From a virus, in the IMG/VR virus record IMGVR_UViG_3300050821_009262, positions 1 to 25,062 of that record: DNA of 25,062 bases. One strand, written 5' to 3'. Shown piece by piece: positions 3,109 through 22,741 of the stretch (positions are counted from its first letter, which is position 1; the number at the start of each line of letters is the position of its first letter). A model generated the notes under the pieces. It was not told the DNA's origin. It saw nothing but the letters and a program-made list of their open reading frames with translations, and searched no databases. A program made the translations under genes and the position numbers.

Positions 3109-3134
3109 CGTGCGCTCCTGGGGAGGAAGTCGCC

Positions 3135-4118: not shown

Positions 4119-4482
4119 AATTTTGGACCTGTTGCCGGAGGTTGATGATTGTCCGGTCGCGCGCGGCAATGACAGGGCCATACTTCGCCTCAGCCGCCTT
4201 CGCGGCGTCGGTGTCTCGTGCTTCAGCCTCTTTGGCAATTTTGGCATTCGCCGCTACCCACACTGCCCTCTCATCGACGCGACCGACGTGGTTTTCATAG
4301 AGACCAGACGCGTACGCGACGCTGACGAGCACGGCGGCCCTTATGGCGAATGCGCGCGCCGTGGGATCGAGGTAGGCCAAGACCGCCAGCGCGACAAGTA
4401 CGCCGACCGAAATGCCGGTCAGCTCACTGATATGGGCGATCTCGCGCCAGATATCGCCGAGACCGGAGAGCATCTCAAACAT
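4045..4482 (-). CDS. Rz-like inner-membrane spanin (i-spanin), 145 aa
   Basis: The N-terminal third holds two hydrophobic segments (about residues 22-39 and 45-61). Next comes a periplasmic Ala/Glu/Lys-rich coiled coil (about 70-130, with AKIAKEAEARDTDAAKAAEA) and a short tail. This fits an i-spanin, although lambda Rz has only one N-terminal helix. The ATG at 4482 overlaps the endolysin stop by 8 nt. The 3' end overlaps the Rz1-like gene by 74 nt. Role: partner of the o-spanin in disrupting the outer membrane. Confidence 0.7.
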   Translation of the reverse strand: MFEMLSGLGDIWREIAHISELTGISVGVLVALAVLAYLDPTARAFAIRAAVLVSVAYASGLYENHVGRVDERAVWVAANAKIAKEAEARDTDAAKAAEAKYGPVIAARDRTIINLRQQVQNYARSIKSAPACPIGAPALRLRLIS

Positions 4483-5356: not shown

Positions 5357-5547
5357 CACAGCTTTCCCAGTTTTTTGATCACGTCCTCGATTCCCTCGGT
5401 CACGTATTGCGTCGCCGCTTCGCAAGCGATGCAGGTGTTCGCATTGCTGTGACCGGTCCCGGCGGCGACCGTGACTTCCTCGACCGTGTCAGGATCGATG
5501 AAGCACGGCCGCCCATCGGGGCGCGTGAAACGGACCAGTCGGCCCAT
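5356..5547 (-). CDS. Small FlbD-like hypothetical protein, 63 aa
   Basis: The product has a beta-rich start (RLVRFTRPDGRPCFIDPDTVEEV) resembling the small FlbD-type fold, where a short strand pair and the I-(N/D)-P-(D/E)-x-(I/V) motif are typical. It ends with a helix (EGIEDVIKKLGKL) as FlbD proteins do. Two Cys occur mid-chain (TCIACE). The ATG directly follows the upstream TAA with no gap, and the stop overlaps the endolysin start, so translation is coupled. The phage role is unknown; resemblance is by pattern only. Confidence 0.55.
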   Translation of the reverse strand: MGRLVRFTRPDGRPCFIDPDTVEEVTVAAGTGHSNANTCIACEAATQYVTEGIEDVIKKLGKL

Positions 5548-5754
5548 TTACATGCCGAGCTTGGTCTTGATGGCCGCAACGTCGGTCTTGAGGGTGGCGA
5601 CGTCGTTCTTCACGGCGTTGGCGGCAGAATTCCACCACGCCTCGACCTTGCCGACGGCGTACGACCAGCCCTTCTTGACGCCGAGGGTCACGAACCAGCC
5701 GACGCCAACGAGGGCGGCACCGGCGGCGATCAGCATCAGATCTTGCATTGCCAT
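5548..5754 (-). CDS. Small membrane protein, 68 aa: one transmembrane helix plus amphipathic tail
   Basis: I choose the ATG at 5754 because GGAG lies 6 nt upstream. The frame extends back to 5793, but without a ribosome site. Residues 6-25 are a hydrophobic helix (LMLIAAGAALVGVGWFVTLG). The rest is an amphipathic helix with heptad-like repeats (NDVATLKTDVAAIKTKLG). Its position just before the endolysin makes it a candidate pinholin, holin or antiholin, besides the XhlA-like protein downstream. This is inference from topology and place. Confidence 0.55.
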   Translation of the reverse strand: MAMQDLMLIAAGAALVGVGWFVTLGVKKGWSYAVGKVEAWWNSAANAVKNDVATLKTDVAAIKTKLGM

Positions 5755-5782
5755 TTTAGTCTCCACGGTTTGGGGGTGTTGC

Positions 5783-6022
5783 TCACTTTCCATGCCGCTT
5801 GAGCACGCGGTCGCACGGCTTGCTCATCTCGCGCCGATGCGTCTTGAAGCACTGGTAGATGCCAGTGCGATCACCGAAAAATGCGCGCGCCAGTTCGTCG
5901 GTCGAACACAGCCGCAGCGCGTCGGGCCTGCAGGCCGCCTTCTCCGCTGCGGTCTGCGCCGCCGCTGCGCTGGTGAGCGCGCACAAAAAAGCCGCCCAGA
6001 GGGCGGCGCGCCGGATCTTCAT
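5783..6022 (-). CDS. Secreted Cys-rich-repeat protein, 79 aa
   Basis: I choose the ATG at 6022 (MKIRR), which has AAGGA 9 nt upstream and gives a typical Sec signal peptide with cleavage after Ala-Ala-Ala near residue 24. The mature part has one copy of the bacterial cysteine-rich repeat pattern: ACRPDALRLC, then IYQCF, then LS-like MSKPC. The four Cys are spaced for two disulfides. Such repeats are common in exported proteins of alphaproteobacteria, so this may have been picked up from a host. It lies 11 nt after the giant gene in the late operon. Function unknown; probably periplasmic. Confidence 0.65.
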   Translation of the reverse strand: MKIRRAALWAAFLCALTSAAAAQTAAEKAACRPDALRLCSTDELARAFFGDRTGIYQCFKTHRREMSKPCDRVLKRHGK

Positions 6023-6033
6023 GTTGCTAATCC

Positions 6034-9000
6034 TTATTGGTTCAGGCCCAACGCATGCCCCAGATCCATGAGTGGCTTCTCCGGGTGCCGGGGCGCCCCT
6101 TCCCACGGGTGCTTGCTTTCGATCTTTCGCTCGCGCGCGATCGCCTGATTAGCCTTGTCGTAATCGGTGCCGTAGAAGACGCGGCCGACCGGAATGTCGG
6201 AGGGGACGATCGGCTGGCCTTGGCCCACGGTGCTGAAGACCTTGGCGGCGTTCTCGATCGTGCGCACCTGACCGCCGAAGTATTCCTTCATGATGTAGGC
6301 GATGTCCTCGGGGTAGAAGTCGAGGTAACCCGAATGCGTGCGGTTACCGCCGCTGACATTGTTGAGGAACTTCGCGATATCCTTCCACGCCGACGGCGTC
6401 CATTTGAAGCCGGACTCGGCGTTCGGTCCTTTCTGCATATCGGTCGTCGTGTGGATATGGCCGCCGGTCCACGATTTGTTGAGGCCGATATCCATGAGCG
6501 GCTTGATCTGCTCCGGCGCGATGTCGCGCCAGGCGACGCCAGTTTCGCCGATCGGCGAAATAGCTGAGATCAACGATTTTATCGCCTGGGCCGCATAGGT
6601 GGCGGCCTTCTCGGTTCCGAAGATCATGCCCGCCGCGGCGTAGCCGAGCGTGAGCGGAAAAGCATAATTGAAGGGGAACGGAAACTGGATCGGTTGCGGA
6701 CGGCCTTTCTCGTCCGACAGGCCGATGAAGAGAGCGAGCTGCTTCGTCTTCGTCCACTCCGGCAACTTATCGAAGAACGCGATTTTGTCTTTGTCCTGGC
6801 CGCCGAACGCATAGTTCCAGGCGGCTGCACCGAACCCCATCGCCATCGTATAGAAGAAGACCTTGCGCATGATACGCGATCGGCTTTGCGCTGCGCCCAT
6901 CCGGTAGCCGGTCTGGGTGGCGACGTTCTGGAACGGCTCCCACAGGGCCAAGTAATTCGACAAAACGCCGCGCAGGTTATAATCGACGGTCGCCTCACGG
7001 GCGGTCATGCTTGCCTGCTGGATCGACTTGCCGGCTTGGCGCGCTTGGACAAAGGCAGAAAGGCGCGTCGAATTGTCGATGATGCTGGTCCACATATCGA
7101 CGGTTTCGCTGATCGCGCGGGCGAGTTCGCGGGGATCGTATTCGCTACGGCCGATCGATGCTGCCTTCTTGCGCAGCCGGTCGAGCATCTGATCGTATTC
7201 GCGCATCGAGAACATCGACATTGCGCCGCCGCCCTCTTTCATCTGCTTCCAGTAGTCACCGAGCGGTCCGCCGTCGCGGCCGTGCTCAACATTCCAGATC
7301 GCGCGCGTCGCGTTGCCGATGAAGGGGAAGGCATCGGTCATGTACTGTAGCGCGCTGAAATTGCCGTGCTCCTTCTGCTCGTAGGCGTTGAGCAGCCCCT
7401 CGACGAAATAGCGCGCCGCGTGCCGGGCCATGAATTCCGGGTTATAGTGGGTGAGCAGGCTCTTCCATTTGCCGAGAATGTGGTTGGCGATCTGGATGAT
7501 GGCGTTGGTTTTCGGCGACCACATCTTGACCGCGCGCGCCAGGCGTAGATCGTCGAACACTACGTACTGGTCCCGGCCGCGCACCTTCATGTGCACGGCG
7601 TTCTCCCGGCGCTGGTCGTAGCTATCGTCCGTCCATTTCACGAGGCCGGTGGAGCGGTCGATCATCCGCTTCGGGCGGCCGCGGTCGATGGTGATGCCCA
7701 GTTCCTTGCGCACCTCGGCGCCGGCGGCATTGAGCATGCGGGCGAGGCCATGGAGGGCGAGGTTCTTCTCGGCCCGGTCGATGGTGCGGAGCGCCTGATC
7801 GACGAGCGCCACGACGGGGTTGTCGGCCTTGCTGCGGCGGCCTAGCGCGCGCTGGGTCTCCGGCCCCTTGATATCGCCGCCATAGCCTTTCGGCCGTTGC
7901 TCGGCGAATTGCGGGGCGTTGGTGGGGTCTTCCCAGCCGCGCAGGGGCACATAGTTCGGGCTCGAACGCCACCACTCGGAGATGGTCTCCTGGCTCTCGA
8001 GGCCGCCGCGGATCATCTCGCTGCTGATGAAGCGCCGGATCTCGCCGACGCGCTGCGCGAGCTCGCGGAAGGCGTCCCCCTTCGGACCATGTTCGAGATC
8101 GAATGCGATCCGTCTGGCGTCGTTGGTCGACATGCCCGAGGCGCCGACGACGTCGTGGTCGGACACAGCCCGGTAGAAATCGCTGCCCGGCTGGTGCAGC
8201 CGGCCGACATTGTCGTTCCGCTCCGGCGCGTGCTTGGCGTAGACGTAATCACCCGCCTCCTGCGAGCCGATATGGCCGATGCGCATCGTGTCGGCGAGCG
8301 GCCGGAAATACTCCGTCATGAAGGTCTGCATGCGGCTCGCGCGCTTGCCGGGGAACAACCGCTTAAGCTGGTAGAATTGCTGGTCGTCGGGCAGCGGCGA
8401 TTCGCGATCCCTGGCGACCCAGTCGTTCGAGCGCGCCTCGACGGCATTCTGCATGCGCTCGACGCGCGCGTTCCAATCCTGGAAGTGCTCCTTGGTCCAG
8501 AGCATGCCTTCGGAGCCGATCAGGTCGGCGATCTTGCGGCGGATGCTCCAGGAGGCCGGGTGCAGCGGGTCGTCGAAGGCCGGGCGCGCCATGGCCGCCT
8601 GCGGGCCTTCCTCCGCGTGCTCGATGCGTGCCGCGACCTCGGTGCGCGCCTGCTCCGCGCGGATCTGGTCGGCCATCCGCGAGGGGGCGCCCTCGGCCTT
8701 GCGGCTCGGCCGGGCGGCGAGATCGCCGGCGGCGGCTTGCTCGAAGACGTCGTGGTAGCTGTTGAAGCCAAGGCCGCGCAGGTAATTGGCGATCTGCTGG
8801 AAGAGACGCCGCAACCGCTCGAATAGCGCCCGGATGCCGATGTGCAGGCCAGCGCCATAGCCGCCGCCCTCGCGGTCTTTCATGAAGGCGGTAAACGCCT
8901 CGGCGCGGATCTCGTAATCCGCCATCTTATCGACCAGCTTGCGGACCTGCGCGTCGGTGGCGCTGGGCGCTTCCTGCTTCATGCTGGCGATCGCCATCTC

Positions 9001-12000
9001 GCGAAGGCGCGGCTCTTGCGCCTTGAGAAGACGCATCTCGGCGTCGGTGACGAAATGGTCTTCGATGGCGTGCCAGGACTCGTGATAGGCGGCGTCAAGC
9101 GGATTGATCGAAGGGTGATTGAGCGCGAGCCGGATGATGTCGTGCATCGGCAGGTACGCGCCGCCGACCTCTTCCTTGCGCGCGTGTCCCCAGCCGATCG
9201 GCTTCATCGCGTAGCGGCCGCGGATGTCGACGGCGACCTGCCTGCCGGTGAGGTGCTGCACTATGGCGGTCAGGCGCCGCGCAAGGTCCTCGCGCAGCGG
9301 CGCCGCCTTCGGCGTCAAGGCGGCGGCGAGCGCCGGCCGCGCCATCGGGGCAAGAAGGTCGCCCTCGGGTTCGGCCTCTTGCGGCTCCGCAGCGCCGCCG
9401 CGGCGCCCTTCGGCCTCTTTCGTCCGGCGGTCCAGCTCGGCGACGATGGCGGCAAGGCGCTCGCGCATCGTCTTGAGCTCGCCGGCGAGCGGAAAGCCTT
9501 CGCCACGCTGCGCCTTCAGGCTCGGCAGCGTCCGCTTCGCCTCGTCGATCCGCTGCTGCATCCACGCGCCGGTCGAGCGCGCGTTGCCCATGATATCTTC
9601 GCTCAGTTTTTCGAGCGCGGCCTGGATACGGTTTGGACTGATTGAACGCTCGGTTCGGCCGCTGATAGCGGCGAGCGTACGACCACCCTTGGTAACGGCG
9701 AGCACGATATCGGCGAAGCTCGTGCTCTCGCCCTGCACAGTAGCGCTTACGTCCGTATCGAACATGCGCCCCAGCGGGACCACCTTGGTCTCGTTGTTTT
9801 TTACGCTGTCGAGCGCGGGCTTCACCTTCTCGGCGATGGCCTTGCCGGCACTCCAGCGGCGCCGGAAAGTCTCTCCGCCCATCGTCATCTCAAATGGCAC
9901 GCGGGTGTCGCCGAAGGCGTTGCGGATGGCCTCCTCGATCGCGGTCTTGTTGGTCAGCGCCGCGCCCTCGATGTTGACGGTGTAGGGCGCGTTCTCGTCG
10001 CCGCCCTTTTGCGTGGCAATCGCGTCTGCCGCTGCTTTCTCCGCACTGAAGTCATCAAAGTGCTTTTTGCCCTCGATAGTGATGGAGCGCGAGCGGACAG
10101 CGTCGAGCAAGGGGTCAACGAGCTCGGAGCGCACCTCGGCGGCGTTGAGCTTTTCCTCTTCGATCTTTGCCGGATAATCCCTGATCGCCCGCTCGGCGCT
10201 GGTGATTGCGTCCTCGATGCCGAACATCTTGCGCCGGTAGGCGCGCTCCTGCATCTCGATCTTCTCGATCTCGCCGCCGAGCTTGACGCGCTCGAGGAGG
10301 AGCGGGTCGCCAGAGGCAAGCGCGGCGATCTCGGCCATGCTCACCGAGTCGTCGTCCTCGAATTCCATATTGAAGGCACCGTTATACTTGCGGATGCCGT
10401 TGACCATCTTGAGCTTCTGGGAATTGAGGTCCCACATCTTCGCGTCGACCGTGCGCTCGGTCGCATAGGCGAGGATTTCCAAGGCGAACTTGTCGCCGTA
10501 TTTCTCAAGGAGCCGGTTGCCCTGGCGGATGCCGCGGCCTTCGCGCTGCTCGATGTCCGACGGCTTCCAGGTCACATCGCCGTGGTGCAGCCCGACGATG
10601 CGCTCCTGCACGTTAGTGCCGGCACCCATGCGCGCGGTCGAACCGATGAGCACACGGATTAGGCCGTCGTTGACGGCGTCGAATATCGCTTTCTTCTCGG
10701 CGTCGCTGCTGGCCTCCTGGATGAACCGGACTTCGTCTGCCGGGATGCCGCGCGCGATCAGGTTTTTTTTCAGTTGGTCGTAGGCGTTCCACCCGCCCTT
10801 CTGCGCTTGGCGCAGTTCCTCCATTTCGGCAGGGTGGTACTTTTCGAGGTGATCGGTGATCTCGCGGTAGGTGGCTTCGTCTCCGGCCGTGAGTGCCGCA
10901 TCGCGCTTGGCGACCAGGCCGTCGTATTCCTTCAGGATGCGGTCGTCGCCCTTGGACTTGGGCACACTGCGATCGAGGAAGACGAGCTGCGTTCCCTTGT
11001 CCTTGCCCCACGCCTTATGCAGGCGCGCGACGTTGTCGGCGATGACGTCGACCTTGCCACCCTTCTCGTTGCCCGGATAGACGGTATGGGTATTGATCGC
11101 CCGCACATCGAGCGAGAGCTTGCGCGCCTTGTCCATGAGGCGCAGTCGGGTCGCGTTGCGCTCATCCGGGTCTTTGATGTTGGGAAGATCGTTGAACGCC
11201 GCGACGATCTCCTCGAGCATCGTCTGCTGCGCGCGCGTCGGCTTGACAATGATCTCCTGGCGGCCGCCGCCCTTGACCTCCGGCACCGGGAACCGCGCGC
11301 CGCCGTTATCTTCTGCGTACCAACGGTTGATGTCGTCCTGCGAAACGGCGTCCGTGAAGGAGTAATAGAGCTCCATCAGCGCGCGCATGTTCGACCAGGA
11401 CCGGCCGAGCCGCGTGACTTCCTTGAGGCCTCCGGCTTCGGTCGGTTCCCATTTCGGCTCCGCCGAGACCGACTGCGCGCGCCAGGCGTCGAAATGCTCA
11501 AGCCCGAGATCGTGCAGATCCCGCGCCGCGAGATAGCGCATCATCGTGTACATCTCGACGGCGCTATTCGAGATCGGCGTTCCGGTCATGAAGGTGACGG
11601 TGCCGGTCGGGCTTTCCCGCAGCACGCGCACCTTGTTGTAGAGATCGAACGCCTTGCGCGAGCCATGCTTGTCGCCCATTCCCCGGACGCCCTGCAGGCG
11701 CGAGGAATAGAAGAGGTTCTTGAACTCGTGGGCCTCGTCGACGGTGAGATCGTCCACACCCATCTGCTCGAACGTCAGCATGTTGTCGCGGTTCTTCGAC
11801 CGCAGCGAATCCATGCGGGTTTCGATGGTGGTGACCAGCCTTTCAGCCTCCTTGACCGTGAAAGGCTTGCGGCCGCCGCCGATGCCAGATGCCTCGGCCT
11901 CTTCCTGGGCCTCTCTCACGGCGTCTTGCGCGACGCGCAGTTCCTCATCGAGGAAGCGCAGCTCGGTGTCGGGCGAGATGCCGATAAAACCGAACGACGA

Positions 12001-15000
12001 GTGCGGAACGATAACGAGGTCCCAGTCGCCGGTCGCGATCTTGGCAAACAGGCGCCGGCGGTTCTGCTTATCGAATTGGTTCTTGCCGGCCGCGAGCACC
12101 TTGGCGCCGGGATAGAGCCGATAGGTGTCGGCCGCCCACTGATCGACGAGATGGTTAGGGACCGTGACCATGGGCTTGCGCGAAAGGCCCATGCGGCGGC
12201 GCTCCATCGCGCGCGCGATCGCCGTGAAGGTCTTGCCCGCCCCGACGACGTGGTCGAGCAGCATGAAGCGCTCGTAGATGCCGCGCCAGATCGCGTTCTT
12301 CTGGTGCCGGCGCATCTTGATGACTTCATCCGGCACCTTGCCGGGAAGCGTCAGATGCGAGCCGTCATGCTGCCGCGTGACGCGGGTGTTGAACTTGTCG
12401 TTATAGATATCGACAAGTTGATTGCGCCGGTCCGTATCGGCAAACACCCAATCAGCGAAATCGTTCTGTATCTCCTTCGCCTTTATCACCACGAGTGCCG
12501 AGGCTTCCTTGTCCTCGTAGCGGTTTTTCTTGGCGTCCTCGCGGATGACTTTCGGGATACGGGAATTGAGCATGCCGCGCAGGATGGCGTCGGCCGGCAT
12601 GTCGTCCGTGCCCCACTGGGCCTGCTTGTCCTGCCCGTAATCCCCGACCAGGAGGTTGAAGCTGTTCGTCGCCTTCGAGTAATTGACGCGGCCCTTGGCG
12701 CCGAGAAGATGCTCGGCGTAATCCTCGTAGATCTTCGGCGGTATCCAGTTGGCCCCCGGCAGCGCGGTGACCTGCTCGGCGGTCCACCTTTCCGGCTGGA
12801 CGGCTTCCAGCTCGGTGATGTTCTTTTCGAGACCGGCAGTGATGGCAGCGGCGAGCTTTCGCCTTACCTGGCCTGACAGGTAGTCGTTGCGCGGTTCCCA
12901 CTCGTTCGTCTCGGGATTGAAAAAGGCGAGTGGCTTGTCGCCCTCGCCGAGCTTCGCCGCGGCTTCTTCCTCGGAGACGCCAAGAAGAGTGGCGACACGC
13001 GGCAGGTCGATCTTGCCTCTCTCGGAGAGTGAGATTGAGAGAGCGTCGGCCGGGCTCTTCGCCGAGGTGGGTGCCTCGTATTTCGGGATGACCCGCCGTG
13101 AAAGAATGGCCGCCGGCGTCGCTGTCGCCGCGCGCGGCTTGTCCCCGGTGCGCGCTGCCTTGGCCGGCGTGATCGGCGGCCGGTATCCGCTTTCGAGTGC
13201 CGCCAGCAGCGCGCCGTCCGGCATCTCATTGACGAGCGCGGCATTGCGGGGTTCGTTGAGCAGCCCGTTCTTGCCGGTATAGCTCTTGTAGGCGGTCGCA
13301 AGGAGACGCCGGTTTGCCTCCATGCGCTTTGCGTCGGCGTCCTCGGTCTCGAGCACGATTTGCTTTTTCGTCAGGTCTCTCAAGCGTGCGAGGTCTGAAA
13401 GGCGTTCGAACTTTGCCTGCCCAAGCCGCATGCCCGCCGGCACGTCATTGTTCGGAAAGTATTTGCGCTCGTAGACGTTCCGCTTGCCCTGCTTGAGCTT
13501 CTCGCCCTTCTCGTTGACCGCCGGTTCGAGCGTGTACCATTTGCCCTCGCGGTCCATGAGAAGCTGTCGCGACCACGGCGACTCGGGCGTGAGCGCGCGC
13601 CGTGTTGCCTCGAAACCGCCAGACGGCGTCTCCTTCTCGGCGATCTGGGTGAGCTGGCCCTTGTCGTCGAACTCGATGTGCCCGGTCTCATGCCCGGCGA
13701 GTGCGATCTTGAGCGCGTCCGACATGGATTTGTGGCGCTCGATCGACGCTTTGGCGATGTCGGGCGAGAGATTGATCGCGTCCTTCGGTAGCGTGCCGAT
13801 GGCCTTGTCAAGCAACGCGCCGAGATCTGCGTTCTTGTCGAGCGTGACATTGACGCCTTTGCCCTCTTCGCCGGCCCGCTGCATCGTCCCGGAGCGTTCG
13901 AGACGCCCCATGACCATCTTCGGATTGCTGGCGAAGTAGGAGTTGACGCTCATCGGTTCGCCGCCGAGAGGGTCTTTCACCTCGTCGGTGTCGATCCACG
14001 GCGCCATCCGCAGGAGCGTTTCCCTCGCGGCTTGGCGCGCCTCGTCTGCCGCTTTGCCCTTCCCGGGCTGCCGCATGTCGGCGATCAGGTTCTCGATGGC
14101 CTTCTCATCTTCCGCGGTCCGGCGCCGCATGAAGACGATGTCCGTCACCACCTCGGTGCGCGCGTTCTCTTTGAAGGCGGTATCGGGAAGGCGGATGGCG
14201 CCGAGCAGGTCCGCCTTTACCGCCATCTTCTCGCGCGCGCTACTATCGCGCGCATCAAGGAGGTATCGCGAGACGACTGCGGCATGCAGGCCGCCCGGCT
14301 GCAGCGCGTCGAGCGCCGCCAGGAAGAACTGATTGTGGATCGAAAGACCGGCGAGCGCCGGCTTGTATTGGAAGCGAAGCGACTCCGAGCCGAACGGCGG
14401 ATTGCCGATCGAGAGCACGAATTCGCCGTCGGGCATTGGCACGCGCTGGAAGCCCGAATGCAGGACAGTCTCCTGCGGATATAACAATTTTGCGATGCGC
14501 GCCGTCAGACTGTCGAACTCGACGCCGATAAACTTGGTATGCGCGGCGAGATGATCCGGCACCAGACCGAGGAAATTGCCCGGCCCCATCGAGGACTCGA
14601 GCGTAAGACCACCCTTGAAGCCCAGGTGCTCGACCGCCTTCCACATGGCGTCGATAACCGGCTTCGACGTGTAATGCGCATTGAGCGTGGTGCGGCGCGC
14701 CGCGCGCAGCTCGTCCTTGGTCAGAAGGCTCTCGAGATTGTTGCCGCGCTCGGCCCAGTCCGGCTTGAATTCGTCGGTCTGCGGCGAGCGGAAGGCATTG
14801 GCGAGACCGCCCCAGCCGACATAACGCGCGAGGATGCGCTGCTCGTCCGGCGTTGCCCGGCGCTCGTCGCGCTCGATGTTCTTGAGCGCCGCGATCGCCG
14901 TGAGGTTGTCGTTGAATTTTTGGGTTTCGCCGCCTTTGCCGAGACCGAGATCTTCCCTGATCCGGAAGTTCTGCTCGGGGACGTTCGGCTCTATCCGACT

Positions 15001-18000
15001 TGCACTGGCGGGGCCTTCAGATAGTCCTGATCCATCTGGTGCAGCTCGGCCCTCTGCTCCTCGTCGAGCCCGTCCACTTCGGGCGGCAGCAGCACGTAGT
15101 CCTTCAGCGCCTTTTCTCTCGCCTCGTGCTCCTGGTACCCGTTCGCCTTGAGGTGATCGATTTCCCTTTGCGCCAGGTTCGCCGCGCCCTCGAGATCCTC
15201 GTTCAGCGTTCCGTTCGCCTGCGCCTCCCGATACTTCTGCGGGAGCCACTTCTGCCAGTGGTCGTTCGCCAGCGCTTTGAGTTCCTGCACGCTCATCGGG
15301 TGCCTCTTCCTTAAATTTATCACCCGGGCGCTCGCCGGCAAGGTCTTCGCGGGTGATTTTCCCGGCTTTGACCTCTTCGATGAATTTCTGCACGTAGGGC
15401 TGGACGCCTTCCAGCATCTCGCGGGACCAGCCATAGGCGTCCTTGAGCTCGCCAATCATCCGGTCCATCAGCTCGTAGATGTCGTCAAGGAAGGCCGAGA
15501 AGCGGCTGGCCGCCTTGATGAAATGCGGCTTTGCCTGCTGATAGGTCTCCGGGTCGAAGGCCGGCCCGGCGCCGACGGTCTTGCCGCCGCCGAAGAGCTT
15601 GGTGAGGGCCTGCATCGCCTCTTCGGCCGAGCCGCCCAGGTTCTCCGCGGCGCTCTTGGCGACCTTCCTCGCGGTGCGGCGGCGCGGTGATTCGGTGGCC
15701 TTGGCGGTCTCTTCGGCGGATTGCTCGGCGGCGTCCTCGCTCGCGATTGCCGCGGCGCGATCGTCCTCGCGCGGTCCGAATGCCTTGTCGAGCGATTGCT
15801 TGAACCGGCGCTGGAATTCCTCGTCTACAGGAAGCTCAGTTGCAGAGGGGGGGGGAGCCCCGGTCGGGGCTGTCGTCCACTCTTCGCGTTGTGCTTCAAG
15901 CTGCTTCGAGGCGGCCTCGGGTAGCCATTCGGTCGACTTCTCCTCCTGGATCACGCGCGCTCGCGCTTCGCGCTTCATCGCAGTCACGGCTTCCGGATCG
16001 AAGAAGCTCTCTAGCTCGGACGCGGTGTCCTGGAAAGCGCGAGCCGCCTCCTGGATGTCACGCGTGAGTTGTTTGATGTATTTCTCGGGCGGCGTACGGC
16101 CCGGCGGTTTCGTTTTTCCGGACTTAATTTCGGCCCGCAATCTGCCGGCGCGACGCATGACGGCTTGGTCGTTGACCATGCTGTTGATGGTCTCGTCGAG
16201 CATGCCCGCGACTTGCGATGCGTCGTAGCTCCCGTCCTCGTTCGCCTCGCCGAAGATCGGGCCACGCTGCTCTTCGTAGGCCGCCAGCTTCTTCTCGTTC
16301 GGCGCTGGGAATGTATCGTTGAAATCCCACGGGCCTTTGTCGGTGAGCTTCACCGTCATCGGCTCGCCGGTATCGGCGGCTTCTATCTCGCCTTCGCGTT
16401 TTACTTTCGGTGTTTCCGGCGCGCGCGCCTGTTCGACGAGGTCGGTTTGCTTGTGCTCGTCGCCGAACAGCCCTTCGTCGGCCGGCTTCTGATTGACCTT
16501 CGGCTTTAGGCGCTCGTCGGCTCGTCGCTGGGCGAGTTCGGCGTCGGAGATGCGTTCTGCGCCAGGGAGGACGTGCTGTTGGCCGGCTGCGGTGCGCTCG
16601 GTGCTGGGTTGTCGTTCGCGCTCGGCTGAGGGCTGCTCTCCTCCGGCAGCGGTCCCGCGTTCCGCGCTTCCGCTGCGTTCGCCAGCTTGAGACCGAGCCT
16701 CGCCGCCTTCTGATATTGCGGGCGCCTCGCCGGCACTCTTCTCGCCAGCTTGCGGAAGCTGTGCGCCGCCGCCATGAGCCGTTTCGTTCTTGGTCTCACT
16801 GACTGCCTCTTGTCGTTCGGTGGCCGCTTCCGATTCTTCAGCCTCGAACACGACCGCGTCATGCTCTGCCTTGAGGAATGCAGCGTCAATAGCATCGATC
16901 GGTTCGTGGCCGTGGTCGATCATCCGGCCGATGGCATCGTTCCAGATCTCGTCGGGAACCTCGTCGCGGCCGATTTTCGCCTGCTTGAGCGCTTTCTTCA
17001 GCTTCTTCTCGTGCTCGGCGACGAGTTTTGCCCGTTCTTCGTTCGCCTCGGTGACGGTGCGCCCGTGGCGCGCGGCTTCCTCGGCGCGGTGCGATTTGAA
17101 TGTGGTGACGGTGCCTTCCTGCCCCGATTCGCGGCGTTTTTTGGCCGCCGCCCGATACTCTTCGGCGTTCTCGACCATGCCCGCGAAGGGCGCGCCGCCG
17201 GTTACACGGGGGGCATTTTCGGCATGTTCACGTTGAGCGGCGTTGCCGGCTTCCACGGCGTTGCCTTGGCCAGATTGCTCGGCTGCAGCTTCGGCAGCGC
17301 GCTCCCCGCCGGCGGGCTCGCGAACGGGATGCTCTCCTGCTTCGCCACCGGCGGCTTCGCCGTTGTCATGCTCGGCACCTTCGGTGCCTTCAGTTTTGGG
17401 GCCTTCGGCGGCTTCGCCAGCCCGCTGGTGAGGTTCTTGTGGGCGAGCCGCGCCGCCGCCACGAAGCTGTTCGCCCGCTGGCGCGGCAGTCTCCCCACGA
17501 GCTGCGGCGCTTGATGCCGCAGGAGGTACGACGAGTGCAGGTGCTCCTGCGGGTTCCAATAGAGCGTGGATTTCTTCACCGTACTGCTCCTTGACCTGCT
17601 CCGGCGTCATTAGGCCGTCCTCGACGGCGGCGCGCACGACGGCGAGTTGGAAGGCGTCGGCTGGCGGCAGGCCCTCGTTGGCGTGGATCTCGGCGGCGCG
17701 CGCGATATCGACCGGTCGCACCTGGTGCGGATCGACGCCCACCTCCTTGAGCGCGGCTTCGACGGCGGCGTGGTCACGGGGTGACGTCTCCGGCCCGCTT
17801 GAAACGACAGAACCCCCCTGGGCGGCAGAGGGGTTTTGTCGTTCCTCCGGGGTAAGATCGGCCTCCCGGGCACCCGTCTTAGGGTTGTTCGCCCCCTCTT
17901 CGGCCGGCTTTACATCCGGCTTTACACTATACATGGCATCGGAGAGCGGCTGGCTCAGGTCGCCCTTGGCCCAGTCCTTGAACTCCGGAACCGACATCGC

Positions 18001-20166
18001 GCGCATGCCGCCGACACCGGTTTCTTCCTTCCCCTGCGCGCCGGTGTAGGCCTTGAGCGCTTCCATCGGGCTCTGGAACCCGATGAACGCCTTGTGCTGG
18101 CGGAATGCTCCGGTCTTCGGATCGCGCTCGTCGATGACGTAGACCGTCGGCGCGCCGGGATTGGCGCCGAAGAAGGCGTCGAGGTGATCGCCATCGGCCC
18201 CTTTTGTTCCCTTGATGTACCCGTACGCAGCGCTGAAGCGTTGCTCCCAGGGCATACCCTCGGCAGAAACGCCGCGCCTGATGCCGCCGGCCGGCGCTTC
18301 GAAGGTGACGCCGAGACCCTGCCACGTCGCATGGCCGCGCTCGGCATTGTTCGCTTCGCCCTGCGCGTGCGTGTGGTCCTGGCTCGCCTGCCGGGATGCG
18401 CGCTCGACGTCGGCGCCGGTTTTGATGTCGATCGGCGCGCCGCGGCTTCCCGGCGCCGGCGGCTCTTCGGTCGATGGCGTGCCGTTGCGCAGCGCCTCGT
18501 CGACGTTTGCCGCCTTCTCCTCTGGCGACATTCCCTTGATGTCTTCGTCGGTGTGGCCCTGGCGGCGCAGGATCTCGTCGTCGTCGGCGCGGTGCGAGCC
18601 ATACCCGAACTTACGGTTGACGTAATCTTTCAGCTCGTCGTCGGACCAAGACCGGATGGTGTCGCGGTCGTGCTCCTTGTAATAGGCGGCGGCGTCCTCG
18701 AGCTGCAGACGCACGCTCGGCTTGAGCTTCGTCTCGAACGGCTGCGGCTTTTCCTTCGGCGCGCTCTGTTGCGCTCCCGCACCTCCAGCGCCGGCGCTCG
18801 CGTTCGGGCCTGTGCTTTGCCACGGGTTGGGATCGTCCTTGCGATCGTAACCGGGATTGTCTTGCTGGTATTTGCCGTAGTCGAAGGAGCCGTTCTCCTG
18901 CCAGTATTTTGGATTATTGGCGTCGGTGAACCCTTGCTGGGCGCCGGCGCTTCCCGGCGGTAGACCTGGCTGCGGCTCTGGTTCGGCGTCGCCCCTGTTA
19001 CGGAGATCGTCCTCCGTATCGATTTTCAGTTCTGGTTTTGCCGCCTGGTGCTTTTCGAGCGCGGCGTGCAACGTGCCCAACGCGCCGCCGGCGAGCAGTT
19101 CCGAGATCAGGCGCTCCGTATTGAACGAATAGCCCGCTTTCGGGTCGTACATCTTGGCGATTTGCTGGCCGATATATTCCTGCGCCTCGCCGACGCTCGC
19201 GAAGACGACGCCGTTCTGCGCCGCCTCCGAAAGGATGCGCATGCCGAGGCCGGCGCCTTCGGGCAGGAGCTTCTTGAAGGGCGCAAGTACGCTCGCGATT
19301 GGCAGCGTGCCGAGCGCAGCATTCGCTGCACCGGACAGCATCGCGGCTTCGCGCGCGGTATCCTCGCTCGCGCCCTTCTCGATCGCCGCGTCGTACGTGT
19401 CGCCGGCGCTCGAAAAGCCGAACATGGCGGCGCCGCCGGCGATGCCGGCTGCCGGATCGACCATGCCGAGCGCGAGCGGCGCGGCGACGCCACCGAGGAT
19501 CTGTCCGGTCTTGCTGTAAATCGGATGCGCGGCGCGCTCGGCCTCGCTAACCGGGATATTCTCCTCGGCCCATTTCTCGGTCGCCTGCCCGGCCCGGTAG
19601 AGCGAGCTTTCCTTGGCTGAGGGCTGCTTGCCGACGGGCACATTCTCGGGGACGTTGATATCGGCTTCGCCGGGCGGGCTCGGCTGCGCCTGTGCGGTTG
19701 CGGCGACGCCGAGGCCTTTGAGCGTGCTGCCGACGCCTTTGACCGCGGACTGCGCCGCCTCGCGTGCGGCAACGCTGGGGCCGCTGCCAATGTCGTTGAC
19801 AGGCACCTCGCCCGCGGCGACCGCTTCATTTTCCGGCGTGCCGAATTGCGAGAAGTCCGGCGATTGCACCTTGTCTTTGGTGGTGCCGAACGCGCTGAAA
19901 TCCGGCTGGCCTTCGGGCGTTTTCGCCGCGCGCTCCGCCATTTTGTCTTGCTGCCGACGGATCAGCCGGTTGAGCACCGCCTGCGGATCGACGTTGCCGT
20001 TGTCGGCAAGGTCCGGCGCGCGCTGCCGGATGAGATCATTGAGCACGCCCTGCGGCTCGATCGGTCCCGTTGAGAGACCGAGTGTGGTGCCGCCGGTGTT
20101 GCCAGCACTATTTGTCTCCGCGTCGTCCGGAGGCGACGCGGGGAGATCAGGCCAATTTGCTGGCAT
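6034..20166 (-). CDS. Giant polyvalent protein, 4710 aa (InPase-like, N6-methyltransferase, SF2 helicase, HExxH zincin, LPD38-like)
   Basis: One uninterrupted frame. The order of parts is as follows. N-terminal short repeats (PDFSAFG and PDFSQFG near residues 90-110). Hydrophobic Gly/Ala-rich segments (about 220-340). An InPase-like domain (about 612-745). Helical linkers. A region preceding the methyltransferase with helices ending near residue 1600. A DarB-like N6-adenine methyltransferase (YVGWGG at 1782, NPPF at 1922-1925). An SF2/SNF2-like helicase (about 2600-3230). Coiled coils. A zincin (HESWH 3695-3699). A long LPD38-like C-terminus (about 3870-4700). Such proteins are known as polyvalent proteins of phages and conjugative elements, delivered with the DNA to defeat host defences. 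It lies between virion and lysis genes, which supports packaging in the virion. Three stretches (about residues 863-988, 1122-1220, 1623-1725) have poor GC3 and Ala/Gly/Glu/Arg composition; each hosts a nested gene in the +1 frame. Confidence 0.9.
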   Translation of the reverse strand: MPANWPDLPASPPDDAETNSAGNTGGTTLGLSTGPIEPQGVLNDLIRQRAPDLADNGNVDPQAVLNRLIRRQQDKMAERAAKTPEGQPDFSAFGTTKDKVQSPDFSQFGTPENEAVAAGEVPVNDIGSGPSVAAREAAQSAVKGVGSTLKGLGVAATAQAQPSPPGEADINVPENVPVGKQPSAKESSLYRAGQATEKWAEENIPVSEAERAAHPIYSKTGQILGGVAAPLALGMVDPAAGIAGGAAMFGFSSAGDTYDAAIEKGASEDTAREAAMLSGAANAALGTLPIASVLAPFKKLLPEGAGLGMRILSEAAQNGVVFASVGEAQEYIGQQIAKMYDPKAGYSFNTERLISELLAGGALGTLHAALEKHQAAKPELKIDTEDDLRNRGDAEPEPQPGLPPGSAGAQQGFTDANNPKYWQENGSFDYGKYQQDNPGYDRKDDPNPWQSTGPNASAGAGGAGAQQSAPKEKPQPFETKLKPSVRLQLEDAAAYYKEHDRDTIRSWSDDELKDYVNRKFGYGSHRADDDEILRRQGHTDEDIKGMSPEEKAANVDEALRNGTPSTEEPPAPGSRGAPIDIKTGADVERASRQASQDHTHAQGEANNAERGHATWQGLGVTFEAPAGGIRRGVSAEGMPWEQRFSAAYGYIKGTKGADGDHLDAFFGANPGAPTVYVIDERDPKTGAFRQHKAFIGFQSPMEALKAYTGAQGKEETGVGGMRAMSVPEFKDWAKGDLSQPLSDAMYSVKPDVKPAEEGANNPKTGAREADLTPEERQNPSAAQGGSVVSSGPETSPRDHAAVEAALKEVGVDPHQVRPVDIARAAEIHANEGLPPADAFQLAVVRAAVEDGLMTPEQVKEQYGEEIHALLEPAGAPALVVPPAASSAAARGETAAPAGEQLRGGGAARPQEPHQRAGEAAEGPKTEGTEGAEHDNGEAAGGEAGEHPVREPAGGERAAEAAAEQSGQGNAVEAGNAAQREHAENAPRVTGGAPFAGMVENAEEYRAAAKKRRESGQEGTVTTFKSHRAEEAARHGRTVTEANEERAKLVAEHEKKLKKALKQAKIGRDEVPDEIWNDAIGRMIDHGHEPIDAIDAAFLKAEHDAVVFEAEESEAATERQEAVSETKNETAHGGGAQLPQAGEKSAGEAPAISEGGEARSQAGERSGSAERGTAAGGEQPSAERERQPSTERTAAGQQHVLPGAERISDAELAQRRADERLKPKVNQKPADEGLFGDEHKQTDLVEQARAPETPKVKREGEIEAADTGEPMTVKLTDKGPWDFNDTFPAPNEKKLAAYEEQRGPIFGEANEDGSYDASQVAGMLDETINSMVNDQAVMRRAGRLRAEIKSGKTKPPGRTPPEKYIKQLTRDIQEAARAFQDTASELESFFDPEAVTAMKREARARVIQEEKSTEWLPEAASKQLEAQREEWTTAPTGAPPPSATELPVDEEFQRRFKQSLDKAFGPREDDRAAAIASEDAAEQSAEETAKATESPRRRTARKVAKSAAENLGGSAEEAMQALTKLFGGGKTVGAGPAFDPETYQQAKPHFIKAASRFSAFLDDIYELMDRMIGELKDAYGWSREMLEGVQPYVQKFIEEVKAGKITREDLAGERPGDKFKEEAPDERAGTQSAGERPLAEVAPAEVSGGAGERNAERGSRGRGEPGAKGNRSPQGERVPGARGERKGAEGLRAAAARSGRARRGAEGRAAPDGSGLSEGPASASRIEPNVPEQNFRIREDLGLGKGGETQKFNDNLTAIAALKNIERDERRATPDEQRILARYVGWGGLANAFRSPQTDEFKPDWAERGNNLESLLTKDELRAARRTTLNAHYTSKPVIDAMWKAVEHLGFKGGLTLESSMGPGNFLGLVPDHLAAHTKFIGVEFDSLTARIAKLLYPQETVLHSGFQRVPMPDGEFVLSIGNPPFGSESLRFQYKPALAGLSIHNQFFLAALDALQPGGLHAAVVSRYLLDARDSSAREKMAVKADLLGAIRLPDTAFKENARTEVVTDIVFMRRRTAEDEKAIENLIADMRQPGKGKAADEARQAARETLLRMAPWIDTDEVKDPLGGEPMSVNSYFASNPKMVMGRLERSGTMQRAGEEGKGVNVTLDKNADLGALLDKAIGTLPKDAINLSPDIAKASIERHKSMSDALKIALAGHETGHIEFDDKGQLTQIAEKETPSGGFEATRRALTPESPWSRQLLMDREGKWYTLEPAVNEKGEKLKQGKRNVYERKYFPNNDVPAGMRLGQAKFERLSDLARLRDLTKKQIVLETEDADAKRMEANRRLLATAYKSYTGKNGLLNEPRNAALVNEMPDGALLAALESGYRPPITPAKAARTGDKPRAATATPAAILSRRVIPKYEAPTSAKSPADALSISLSERGKIDLPRVATLLGVSEEEAAAKLGEGDKPLAFFNPETNEWEPRNDYLSGQVRRKLAAAITAGLEKNITELEAVQPERWTAEQVTALPGANWIPPKIYEDYAEHLLGAKGRVNYSKATNSFNLLVGDYGQDKQAQWGTDDMPADAILRGMLNSRIPKVIREDAKKNRYEDKEASALVVIKAKEIQNDFADWVFADTDRRNQLVDIYNDKFNTRVTRQHDGSHLTLPGKVPDEVIKMRRHQKNAIWRGIYERFMLLDHVVGAGKTFTAIARAMERRRMGLSRKPMVTVPNHLVDQWAADTYRLYPGAKVLAAGKNQFDKQNRRRLFAKIATGDWDLVIVPHSSFGFIGISPDTELRFLDEELRVAQDAVREAQEEAEASGIGGGRKPFTVKEAERLVTTIETRMDSLRSKNRDNMLTFEQMGVDDLTVDEAHEFKNLFYSSRLQGVRGMGDKHGSRKAFDLYNKVRVLRESPTGTVTFMTGTPISNSAVEMYTMMRYLAARDLHDLGLEHFDAWRAQSVSAEPKWEPTEAGGLKEVTRLGRSWSNMRALMELYYSFTDAVSQDDINRWYAEDNGGARFPVPEVKGGGRQEIIVKPTRAQQTMLEEIVAAFNDLPNIKDPDERNATRLRLMDKARKLSLDVRAINTHTVYPGNEKGGKVDVIADNVARLHKAWGKDKGTQLVFLDRSVPKSKGDDRILKEYDGLVAKRDAALTAGDEATYREITDHLEKYHPAEMEELRQAQKGGWNAYDQLKKNLIARGIPADEVRFIQEASSDAEKKAIFDAVNDGLIRVLIGSTARMGAGTNVQERIVGLHHGDVTWKPSDIEQREGRGIRQGNRLLEKYGDKFALEILAYATERTVDAKMWDLNSQKLKMVNGIRKYNGAFNMEFEDDDSVSMAEIAALASGDPLLLERVKLGGEIEKIEMQERAYRRKMFGIEDAITSAERAIRDYPAKIEEEKLNAAEVRSELVDPLLDAVRSRSITIEGKKHFDDFSAEKAAADAIATQKGGDENAPYTVNIEGAALTNKTAIEEAIRNAFGDTRVPFEMTMGGETFRRRWSAGKAIAEKVKPALDSVKNNETKVVPLGRMFDTDVSATVQGESTSFADIVLAVTKGGRTLAAISGRTERSISPNRIQAALEKLSEDIMGNARSTGAWMQQRIDEAKRTLPSLKAQRGEGFPLAGELKTMRERLAAIVAELDRRTKEAEGRRGGAAEPQEAEPEGDLLAPMARPALAAALTPKAAPLREDLARRLTAIVQHLTGRQVAVDIRGRYAMKPIGWGHARKEEVGGAYLPMHDIIRLALNHPSINPLDAAYHESWHAIEDHFVTDAEMRLLKAQEPRLREMAIASMKQEAPSATDAQVRKLVDKMADYEIRAEAFTAFMKDREGGGYGAGLHIGIRALFERLRRLFQQIANYLRGLGFNSYHDVFEQAAAGDLAARPSRKAEGAPSRMADQIRAEQARTEVAARIEHAEEGPQAAMARPAFDDPLHPASWSIRRKIADLIGSEGMLWTKEHFQDWNARVERMQNAVEARSNDWVARDRESPLPDDQQFYQLKRLFPGKRASRMQTFMTEYFRPLADTMRIGHIGSQEAGDYVYAKHAPERNDNVGRLHQPGSDFYRAVSDHDVVGASGMSTNDARRIAFDLEHGPKGDAFRELAQRVGEIRRFISSEMIRGGLESQETISEWWRSSPNYVPLRGWEDPTNAPQFAEQRPKGYGGDIKGPETQRALGRRSKADNPVVALVDQALRTIDRAEKNLALHGLARMLNAAGAEVRKELGITIDRGRPKRMIDRSTGLVKWTDDSYDQRRENAVHMKVRGRDQYVVFDDLRLARAVKMWSPKTNAIIQIANHILGKWKSLLTHYNPEFMARHAARYFVEGLLNAYEQKEHGNFSALQYMTDAFPFIGNATRAIWNVEHGRDGGPLGDYWKQMKEGGGAMSMFSMREYDQMLDRLRKKAASIGRSEYDPRELARAISETVDMWTSIIDNSTRLSAFVQARQAGKSIQQASMTAREATVDYNLRGVLSNYLALWEPFQNVATQTGYRMGAAQSRSRIMRKVFFYTMAMGFGAAAWNYAFGGQDKDKIAFFDKLPEWTKTKQLALFIGLSDEKGRPQPIQFPFPFNYAFPLTLGYAAAGMIFGTEKAATYAAQAIKSLISAISPIGETGVAWRDIAPEQIKPLMDIGLNKSWTGGHIHTTTDMQKGPNAESGFKWTPSAWKDIAKFLNNVSGGNRTHSGYLDFYPEDIAYIMKEYFGGQVRTIENAAKVFSTVGQGQPIVPSDIPVGRVFYGTDYDKANQAIARERKIESKHPWEGAPRHPEKPLMDLGHALGLNQ
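8750..9270 (-). other. Zincin metallopeptidase domain (HExxH) of the giant protein
   Basis: About residues 3630-3805. The HESWH at 3695-3699 (in DAAYHESWHAIED) is an HExxH zinc-binding motif with Glu3696 as the general base. A downstream glutamate in EIRAEAFTAF could be the third ligand. The preceding segment (HDIIRLALNHPSINPLD) resembles domains that precede such zincins in other polyvalent proteins. Possible roles are self-processing of the giant chain or cleavage of a host target; the sequence does not decide. Confidence 0.65.
10480..12360 (-). other. SF2/SNF2-like helicase domain of the giant protein
   Basis: About residues 2603-3229. All the main ATPase motifs are present: Walker A VGAGKT (G2642-T2646), motif Ia (VTVPNHLVDQW), Walker B DEAH (2810-2813), motif III (TFMTGTPISNS), motif V (GSTARMGAGTN) and motif VI (QREGRGIRQGN, from 3207). 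An RHQKNAIWR Q-like motif precedes Walker A. With the methyltransferase upstream this matches the methylase-helicase pairing of DarB-type antirestriction proteins. It appears catalytically intact. Confidence 0.85.
13980..14990 (-). other. N6-adenine DNA methyltransferase domain (DarB-like) of the giant protein
   Basis: About residues 1725-2062. It begins with the conserved lead-in (ARYVGWGG at about 1780) typical of polyvalent DarB-like proteins. It then has a SAM-binding loop (LESSMGPGNFLG near 1856), an acidic strand end (GVEFD) and the catalytic IGNPPFG (NPPF 1922-1925), which places the target adenine. It probably methylates incoming phage DNA to protect it from restriction. No start codon with a ribosome site lies just upstream, so this part must be translated as a continuation of the giant frame. 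Confidence 0.8.
14991..15296 (-). CDS. Nested out-of-frame gene 3 inside the giant ORF: 101-aa soluble protein
   Basis: An ATG at 15296 lies 6 nt after AAGAGG (complement of 15308-15303), and TAG closes the frame at 14991. It is in the +1 frame relative to the giant ORF. The product looks like a genuine helical protein: MSVQELKALANDHWQKWL, then NLAQREIDHL, then DYVLLPPEVDGL and an acidic end. By hand count over 15181-15240, 16 of 19 codons of this frame end in G or C, against 8 of 20 for the giant frame. The giant frame here gives only Arg/Gly/Ala/Glu-rich sequence. No family is named with certainty, though the LLPPE ending resembles small conserved proteins of alphaproteobacterial elements. 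It is better supported as coding than the overlapping giant segment. Confidence 0.75.
   Translation of the reverse strand: MSVQELKALANDHWQKWLPQKYREAQANGTLNEDLEGAANLAQREIDHLKANGYQEHEAREKALKDYVLLPPEVDGLDEEQRAELHQMDQDYLKAPPVQVG
16506..16799 (-). CDS. Nested out-of-frame gene 2 inside the giant ORF: 97-aa Pro/Asn-rich protein
   Basis: A GTG at 16799 lies exactly 6 nt after AAGAGG (complement of 16811-16806); an alternative ATG is at 16775. TAA ends it at 16506. It uses the same +1 frame as the other two nested genes. The N-terminal half is basic and helical (HSFRKLARRVPARRPQYQ, then LGLKLANAAEARN). The C-terminal half is Ser/Pro/Asn-rich and probably disordered. GC-ending codons clearly dominate in this frame from about the ATG onward, while the giant frame shows the same Ala/Gly/Glu/Arg linker as at the other sites. 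Function unknown. It is less certain than genes 1 and 3 because the tail is of low complexity. Confidence 0.6.
   Translation of the reverse strand: MRPRTKRLMAAAHSFRKLARRVPARRPQYQKAARLGLKLANAAEARNAGPLPEESSPQPSANDNPAPSAPQPANSTSSLAQNASPTPNSPSDEPTSA
17202..17579 (-). CDS. Nested out-of-frame gene 1 inside the giant ORF: 125-aa Pro/Lys-rich protein
   Basis: A GTG at 17579 lies 7 nt after AAGGAG (complement of 17592-17587), and TAA is at 17202. It is in the +1 frame relative to the giant ORF. The N-terminal 50 residues look globular (KKSTLYWNPQEHLHSSYLL, then ANSFVAAARLAHKNL). The rest is a Pro/Lys/Ala-rich tail with PKAPKLKAPKVP-type repeats ending Met-Pro-Pro-Val. By hand count over 17521-17580, 17 of 19 codons end in G/C here against 6 of 20 in the giant frame; over 17281-17340 the figures are about 20 of 20 against 12 of 20. 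The giant frame has about 90% GC3 just upstream (17641-17700) and recovers right after the nested stop. The function is not recognised. Confidence 0.72.
   Translation of the reverse strand: MKKSTLYWNPQEHLHSSYLLRHQAPQLVGRLPRQRANSFVAAARLAHKNLTSGLAKPPKAPKLKAPKVPSMTTAKPPVAKQESIPFASPPAGSALPKLQPSNLAKATPWKPATPLNVNMPKMPPV
17940..18333 (-). other. InPase-like domain of the giant protein
   Basis: About residues 612-745 of the giant protein. The segment reads ERGHATWQGL, then YGYIKGTKGADGDHLDAFFG (DGDH at 658-661), then VYVIDERDPKTG and later MSVPEFKDW. This succession is the hallmark of the inorganic-pyrophosphatase-like domain found in polyvalent proteins of mobile elements. The Asp and His residues of GADGDHLD are the likely metal ligands. 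Whether it hydrolyses pyrophosphate or acts on modified nucleotides is unknown. Confidence 0.7.
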
Positions 20167-20174
20167 GCGTTCAC

Positions 20175-21524
20175 TTACGCCGCGGCTTGGATCTGCGCGG
20201 GCGGTTCTGAGGCGAGATAATCGTCGGAGGAGAGTTGCTGCGGGGAAGCGGACGCGCCCGCGCCAGGCGGCGGAACGGTGCGCTGGAGCACGTTGCCGTT
20301 CTGGTCTTTATACCAAGCGCCCATCGGCACCTGAGAATGGAATTGATCGAGCGACATGCCTTTCGTGTCGAAGGGATTATTGGGAGCGGTGCCCTGGTCT
20401 CTGAGCTTTGCTGCCTTGTCGGGATCGACGCCGGCCGATTTGTAGAGACGGTTGCGATAGCCGTCGACGGTCTTTTGCAGGTTTTGGAGATCCTCCTGCT
20501 GCTGCTCCGGCGACGTGCCGTTGAGCGCCCACCGCTTCTGCAGGATGATCTGTTGGCCCTTCTCGTATTTCTGAGCCTCGTTCTCGACCTGGATCACCTT
20601 GCCGTACGGCGTGTTCTGCCACGCGTTCGAGCCGCCGGTACCGGACATCATGCCGGTCGCGCGCGCGTTGAAGTATTTGGTGCGCGCCTGATTGTAGGCT
20701 TCGGCATCGTCGGTGTGCTGCGCCAGGATCATGTCCTTGAACGCGGCCGAGCTCTGATCGAAGTTTTGTTTCTTCTGCGCCTCTTGGTCGGCGATACCGC
20801 CGCTCAAGCCGCCGCCCATGCCGGCTGCGAACGATGCGGCGCCGCTCGCGCCAGGGCGCTGCGCGCCAACCGCGGACAAGCCTCTGCCGACGCCGGCAAG
20901 AGCGCTCTGCCAATAGTTCGGCTGCGATTGCTGCTGACGTAGGAGGCCAAGCGCCCTGGCAAGGCTGCCGGTGGTGCTGGTGGGCGGCGCTCCGCCGCCG
21001 GGCGGCAGCGCTGCCGGATTGGCGCCGGAGAGGCCGAAATTCGGGGAGATGTTGAGCGGAGCACCGGGCCCAACGTCGGTCATGCCGCCGTTGTATCCTT
21101 GGCCGCCCGGCGGTCCGGAAGGTGTCGGGCCGGTCGGACCTGGAATCGCGGCGTTGGCTGGTGTAACGAGGCTCGGTCCGCCGCCAGGCGGCGGCGTAGG
21201 GGAAGGCGGGATTGGACCGCCGCCATAGGAGCCGCCAGGGCCAGATGGAGGTACGGCCGCGGCGCTGAAGGGAGCGGTGCCGGCATCGCCAAGGGCCGGG
21301 ATCGGTCCGGGCTGGGGGCCCAATGCTCCGCCATCGACGGCACCGCTCGGCGAGAACGGGCCGGGATTGTTCATCGCGGCCGCGGGCGGAAGCGCCGGCG
21401 GCGCTCCGCCGCCATAGCCTTGGCCGGGAGGCGGAGCGCCAGTAGGGCCCGCGCCGGCAGGTCCGGGCTGTCCCAGAATACTGGCCCAGTTGCTCGAGAG
21501 AAAGTCGAGAATGCTGTCGCCCAT
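20175..21524 (-). CDS. Pro/Gly-rich probable internal virion protein, 449 aa
   Basis: Residues 1-185 are a long Pro/Gly/Ala/Ser-rich, disordered tract after a short structured start (MGDSILDFLSSNWASILGQ). The rest is helical (LARALGLLRQQQSQ, GVGRGLSAVG, QEAQKKQNFDQSSAAFKDMI), then a Gln-rich coiled coil, ending in QIQAAA. There is no enzyme motif. A GGGAG precedes the ATG (the upstream stop is 12 nt away), and the giant gene starts 8 nt after its stop. Placement between a virion protein and the polyvalent protein suggests an internal or ejected capsid protein, perhaps helping to load the giant protein. The function is inferred. Confidence 0.7.
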   Translation of the reverse strand: MGDSILDFLSSNWASILGQPGPAGAGPTGAPPPGQGYGGGAPPALPPAAAMNNPGPFSPSGAVDGGALGPQPGPIPALGDAGTAPFSAAAVPPSGPGGSYGGGPIPPSPTPPPGGGPSLVTPANAAIPGPTGPTPSGPPGGQGYNGGMTDVGPGAPLNISPNFGLSGANPAALPPGGGAPPTSTTGSLARALGLLRQQQSQPNYWQSALAGVGRGLSAVGAQRPGASGAASFAAGMGGGLSGGIADQEAQKKQNFDQSSAAFKDMILAQHTDDAEAYNQARTKYFNARATGMMSGTGGSNAWQNTPYGKVIQVENEAQKYEKGQQIILQKRWALNGTSPEQQQEDLQNLQKTVDGYRNRLYKSAGVDPDKAAKLRDQGTAPNNPFDTKGMSLDQFHSQVPMGAWYKDQNGNVLQRTVPPPGAGASASPQQLSSDDYLASEPPAQIQAAA

Positions 21525-21536
21525 GGCCGTGCTCCC

Positions 21537-22730: not shown

Positions 22731-22741
22731 GGCGGTACTCT

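Follow-up and report, generated by a model that had tools for sequence, protein, structure and literature searches.

The giant gene and its neighbours

The window analysed here is a 25,062-base fragment that makes up the whole of IMG/VR virus record IMGVR_UViG_3300050821_009262. As originally predicted, a single ORF fills more than half of it, lying at exactly 6034..20166; the strand, which the prediction left unstated, is minus (read from 20166 to 6034). The ORF starts with ATG and runs for 4,710 codons with zero internal stops. The probability of a chance open frame of this length is log10 P ~ -53 at the base composition of the stretch, so the ORF is not fortuitous, and its GC content at the three codon positions (0.67/0.46/0.80) has the pattern usual for coding sequence. 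Large plus-strand ORFs face the giant gene (one is 10774-12876, 700 aa) and were read as artefacts that GC-rich coding DNA produces on its antisense strand. The record of Pseudomonas phage Itty13 (MW460249) annotates three large antisense ORFs opposite a homologous cysteine-free giant, which is probably a misannotation. A megablast search of the phage collection returned no close relatives of the window. The features of the locus, all on the minus strand, are as follows.

3825..6106, minus: lysis cassette including small membrane-type ORFs, with probable spanin and holin roles assigned by position and sequence
4482-3825, minus: Rz/Rz1-like overlapping pair, by position and sequence
4475-5425, minus: Phage_lysozyme endolysin (PF00959, E=4e-25; PHROG_7)
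6034..20166, minus: giant polyvalent protein, 4,710 aa, zero cysteines (ORF call, composition)
6187..6774, minus: LPD38 domain, aa 4465-4660 (Pfam PF18857, E=5.7e-27, 95.5 bits against a cut-off of 27)
9070..9084, minus: HESWH, aa 3695-3699, putative zincin metal site (H, E and H in 8/8 homologous regions)
10207..14943, minus: DarB-like adenine methylase and SNF2-type ATPase core, aa 1742-3320 (PHROG_10089 'DarB-like antirestriction', E=0)
11728..11739, minus: Walker B DEAH, aa 2810-2813 (D and E in 100/101 homologues, H in 96/101)
12229..12243, minus: Walker A GAGKT, aa 2642-2646 (G, G and K, the last being K2645, invariant in 100 homologues)
14392..14403, minus: NPPF methylase motif, aa 1922-1925 (N1922, the second P and F/Y each in 100/100 homologues)
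17965..18366, minus: InPase domain, aa 601-734, family I pyrophosphatase-like (Pfam PF18823, E=9.2e-38, above cut-off)
18178-18195, minus: DGDHLD of the InPase domain, containing DGDH (aa 658-661)
19057..19779, minus: N-terminal Ala/Gly-rich segment, aa 130-370, kept in the closest relatives only (conservation profile)
20175..21524, minus: 449-aa Pro/Gly-rich protein with zero cysteines, directly upstream of the giant; candidate ejection partner
21537..22730, minus: ejection-protein-like, 397 aa, C-terminal Peptidase_S74 (PHROG_4287 'DNA ejection protein', E=1.6e-23; PF13884), one cysteine at residue 2
23489..25060, minus: virion structural protein, 523 aa, cut by the record end (PHROG_3287), five cysteines

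Minus-strand transcription would run from the structural protein through a small ORF, the ejection-like protein, the 449-aa protein and the giant to the lysozyme and the Rz/Rz1-like pair. The giant gene thus lies between virion genes (ejection-like and tail genes, 20175-25060) and lysis genes, the placement that had been predicted. The PHROG_4287 neighbour and synteny locate it within an ejection gene cluster, and its gene order is that of the isolated podoviruses PEp14, JC1, LASTA, VvAW1 and 8P. Relatives often have a cysteine-free ORF of several hundred residues ahead of the giant. The small ORF in this series (155 aa, 22742-23209, minus strand) has no Pfam match; relatives carry an N-acetyltransferase here within the virion gene cluster. 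A 138-aa plus-strand ORF at 1270-1686, in an oppositely oriented cluster of small genes, encodes a zinc-ribbon-like protein with eight cysteines.

Domains of the giant protein

Judged by its several disparate domains (InPase, methylase-ATPase, LPD38), the giant is a DarB-like phage polyvalent protein. This domain combination is already known, and both the family and the domain set have been described: the phage polyvalent proteins of Iyer et al. 2017 also include the methylase-SNF2 pair, InPase, a HExxH domain and LPD38, and were predicted to be injected (PMC5512222). All of the catalytic motifs claimed to be intact were located (DGDH, NPPF, VGAGKT, DEAH and, at the putative protease, HESWH), and the domain searches proposed earlier matched InPase, the DarB-like family and LPD38. 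Among the predicted modules, InPase and methylase-ATPase are supported by Pfam, PHROG and fold comparison, as is LPD38; the protease is suggested by motif and position. Of 102 phage giants exceeding 3,000 aa, some of whose loci duplicate one contig, ~100 cover the core, 37 InPase, 8 the HESWH region and ~15 the LPD38 end, so that the protein combines a constant core with ends that can be swapped. Active-site residues are kept wherever their domain is present, and the long linkers of the giant are of low complexity. The record IMGVR_UViG_3300046513_000224 carries a cysteine-free giant ORF with an open 5' end, whose length is 7,066 aa or more.

The InPase domain retains the acidic residues D658, D660 and D663, of which D658 and D663 are present in 37/37 homologues. 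Its AF2 model is confident (pLDDT 91.6). In a second-look structural alignment, the best 50 entries were all family I pyrophosphatases at modest Z scores of 5.6-6.6; Foldseek E values were above 0.001. Among solved structures, the one relative by sequence is a phage portal protein, in its C-terminal domain (9b41, E=5e-17). This agrees with the fusions of portal and InPase that Iyer et al. 2017 pointed out (PMC5512222).

The core pairs an NPP(Y/F) gamma-class adenine methylase with a following SNF2-type SF2 ATPase, as indicated by PHROG_10089 and the conserved motifs; over aa 2616-3216, Pfam gives weak SNF2, ResIII and Helicase_C matches. Identity as a defence-system helicase was rejected, since the PADLOC and NCBIfam matches are weak (the latter far under cut-offs) and cover ATPase or methylase motifs only. 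A second HExxH sequence, HETGH at aa 2159-2163, lies inside the core, is shared by few relatives and is probably not metal-binding. In one related giant (IMGVR_UViG_3300025000_000430), an intein-like insert at aa ~2787-3120 splits the DEAH box (DE|C...SN|CHEF). Most of the nine cysteines of that ORF lie within the insert or at its ends, and the insert would be spliced out.

A metallopeptidase at the putative HESWH site is plausible, and a metallopeptidase role with chain processing was proposed by Iyer et al. 2017 (PMC5512222). HExxH occurs in 50/92 distinct giants. The motif count is 63, where shuffled sequences would give 8.0, and most of the motifs lie some hundreds of residues past the ATPase core. 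Profile searches with the HESWH region of the window found no zincin family match and the third zincin metal ligand was not identified; PDB profile matches to acyl-CoA dehydrogenases and one unrelated chain were judged to be chance. The AF2 model of aa 3600-4710 is poor (pLDDT 60, pTM 0.38) and places HESWH on a helix after strands. Farther along, the LPD38 domain is matched in 10/11 homologous C-terminal regions.

Cysteine loss tracks phage context

The giant contains no cysteine in 4,710 residues, a feature that the original prediction did not mention. About 51 would be expected at the 1.08% of neighbouring ORFs in related phages and about 21 at the 0.45% of the homologous non-phage core. 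TGC and TGT are absent from its frame and occur 147 and 96 times in the other two sense frames. Across 78 related phage giants, 343,808 aa contain 51 cysteines, and 45 of these proteins have none; such counts use mechanically called ORFs, so that start sites may be wrong, and the database copies are related among themselves.

The core, which is found in both phage and non-phage settings, allows a direct comparison. The 96 distinct phage copies hold 47 cysteines in 146,050 aa (0.03%), and 75 of them have none, whereas 82 distinct plasmid or chromosomal copies hold 523 in 116,845 aa (0.45%), with 2-22 in each and no copy at zero. Every residue other than cysteine differs less than twofold between the two sets. 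At ten alignment columns where cysteine recurs in non-phage copies, it is found in 0/95 phage copies. Cysteine loss in this protein family therefore tracks phage versus non-phage context, although the non-phage copies, gathered with a plasmid-first alignment, come mostly from one alphaproteobacterial lineage, so that the independent contrasts are few.

A quick tree of the core, with some long branches, places an Acinetobacter plasmid copy with 15 cysteines inside the cysteine-free phage clade of the window, and makes the podoviruses JC1 and Y7 (0 Cys) sister to a plasmid and chromosomal clade with 4-11; both joins have SH-aLRT values of 100. Positions 8881-14607 of Acinetobacter plasmid p10FS3-1-1 hold a stand-alone methylase-ATPase of the window's phage clade with 18 cysteines in 1,908 aa, apparently a virion gene that has moved onto a plasmid.

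Some phage copies keep cysteine: L020 (9 in 2,556 aa), L023 (14/5,264), a Bacteroides phage (8/5,553) and a Helicobacter prophage (4/4,272). L020 adjoins portal and terminase genes. The L023 contig has 39.5% GC and an endolysin of a PHROG family; the beginning of this endolysin is similar to GH25 muramidases, as might be expected if the host were Gram-positive. Two of these exceptions loosely match an explanation based on the periplasm (see below), and none is proof of it.

Established ejected proteins of T7, P22 and N4 served as controls. T7 gp15 and gp16, P22 gp7, gp20 and gp16, and N4 vRNAP, gp51 and gp52 have 0 cysteines, and T7 gp14 has one. Across families, there are 5 cysteines in 60,389 aa of T7 gp16, 0 in 41,217 aa of P22 gp16 and 2 in 61,370 aa of N4 vRNAP, against 0.58-0.96% in neighbours. 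Cysteine-free ORFs of at least 600 aa are rare in bacterial contigs (1/107). Absence of cysteine is not a rule for all ejected proteins, because P1 DarB, which is ejected via a contractile tail of the long type, carries 9 cysteines in 2,255 aa.

The lack of cysteine in N4-like vRNAPs and the idea that this eases passage through tail or periplasm have been published (PMC3715699, PMC2784036, PMC3915230, PMC10747016), and absent cysteine was among the grounds for naming one protein a vRNAP (PMC10747016). The phage giants and ejected proteins examined here show that polymerases are not alone in having this property. In the open-licence literature searched, we found reports for vRNAPs only and none of cysteine exclusion in polyvalent proteins; the survey of Iyer et al. 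2017, which does not mention the zero-cysteine property, never uses the word cysteine (PMC5512222).

Probable packaging and ejection, and possible fate of the chain

Experimental evidence bearing on packaging comes from JC1 gp69, a 4,515-aa protein of a Bcep22-like podovirus of Burkholderia. It resembles the giant in its core, C-terminal region, gene order and lack of cysteine, and aligns with it in the core and C-terminal region. It differs in that the core is only ~31% identical and BLAST finds no homology to the InPase of the window; transglycosylase is annotated in its relatives DC1 and CSP3. Mass spectrometry of virions purified on CsCl identified JC1 gp69 by 51 unique peptides (PMC9144972), and packaging of its syntenic homologue in the window is likely on that account. 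Giants from PEp14 (Erwinia phage, 4,914 aa), PBC5, Atu_ph08 and LASTA are closer in the core (37-39% identity) and have an ejection-like gene nearby and 0-1 cysteines, but their ends have diverged: InPase is present in Atu_ph08, and BLAST gives no PEp14 match. The original prediction of a packaged and ejected protein is thus backed indirectly, by podovirus gene order, the JC1 gp69 peptides and the zero-cysteine signature, and may be called likely.

Two further systems are instructive. Like the giant, N4 vRNAP is very large, free of cysteine and reported to have a HExxH domain; it is ejected, and the same explanation for its missing cysteines was offered earlier, but it is an RNA polymerase rather than a methylase-ATPase. 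P1 DarB shares the methylase-ATPase arrangement and is an anti-restriction virion protein, but it is smaller than the giant, belongs to a myovirus, retains cysteines and aligns by BLAST in the methylase part only. To our knowledge, P1 is the only phage in which protection from type I restriction in cis by a DarB-like methylase-ATPase is known. This virion-borne, cis-acting role of DarB is documented (PMC12707154, PMC12810830).

The explanation that we consider probable is that the giant is a packaged and ejected anti-restriction protein of a short-tailed phage, and that its lack of cysteine reflects a route through the tail and an oxidizing periplasm. Packaging, ejection and anti-restriction we infer from the homologies and gene order above. 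The giant would be a late-made internal virion protein of a phage with a Gram-negative host, packaged alongside the DNA, its cysteine-free 449-aa neighbour and the ejection-like protein; at the next infection it would be ejected into the new cell together with the genome or ahead of it. Once inside, the methylase-ATPase core may act on or sit along the incoming phage DNA and shield it from restriction, as P1 DarB does; the hypothetical substrate of InPase would probably be pyrophosphate or a nucleotide-like phosphate ester, hydrolysed by this domain, and the HESWH domain may cut the chain. The reason for cysteine loss is hypothetical: if the chain crosses tail and oxidizing periplasm at least partly unfolded, thiols would be trapped as disulfides, and cysteine would be kept out. 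The same reason has been published for N4-like vRNAPs (PMC3715699, PMC2784036).

That the giant is packaged and ejected but excludes cysteine for particle stability or head assembly seems unlikely; the major capsid proteins of N4 and P22 are indeed poor in cysteine (0 and 1), yet P22 gp10, tailspike and portal and T7 gp12 retain 4-8, the tail protein of the window has five, and P1 DarB, itself a head protein, keeps nine. An early intracellular methylase-ATPase that never enters the virion is a still weaker candidate and quite improbable: non-phage homologues are ordinary plasmid or chromosomal genes, but the giant is placed among late genes, JC1 gp69 is found in virions, and the giant has zero cysteines where non-phage copies of the region always have some. 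Base composition or disorder as the source of the missing cysteines can practically be dismissed. The long low-complexity linkers would suit it, but the globular homologous core shows the same loss, and the core comparison, the codon counts in the other sense frames and the ten-column test led to its rejection.

Near-total cysteine exclusion might be a general mark of proteins ejected by short-tailed phages into hosts with an oxidizing periplasm, one that extends even to large conserved enzyme domains and is lost on a move to plasmids. We favour this generalization by a narrow margin. If it is true, ejected chains travel through the periplasm either unfolded or within reach of disulfide-forming enzymes. 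Homology is a poor guide to ejected proteins, and this simple sequence mark could then be used to list them from the genome of any such phage. At stake is how a chain of nearly half a megadalton passes a tail and two membranes and is still enzymatically active afterwards. A homologous core that occurs in virion and plasmid contexts, and differs most in cysteine, offers a natural experiment on what the route demands.

Compatible with the ejection explanation is a polyprotein that its own HESWH domain cuts into InPase, methylase-ATPase and C-terminal working fragments; it is possible, though we lean against it. In its favour are the HExxH motifs past the ATPase core in many relatives and the processing of P1 DdrB (PMC5512222). 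Against it, N4 vRNAP has a similar HExxH-type domain and is packaged whole (PMC5512222), and the corresponding region of the window lacks a zincin family match and models poorly. The division of the giant gene in three related loci (L004, L007 and L008) has also been weighed. In each, two ORFs take the place of the single gene, with the break just ahead of the methylase and core and the InPase half first. This split indicates that the InPase and methylase halves can work as separate chains, which favours self-cutting, although separate genes would fit a processed or an unprocessed chain alike. At the end of the first ORF, the one with InPase, the three loci have a similar peptide, IACMxG.
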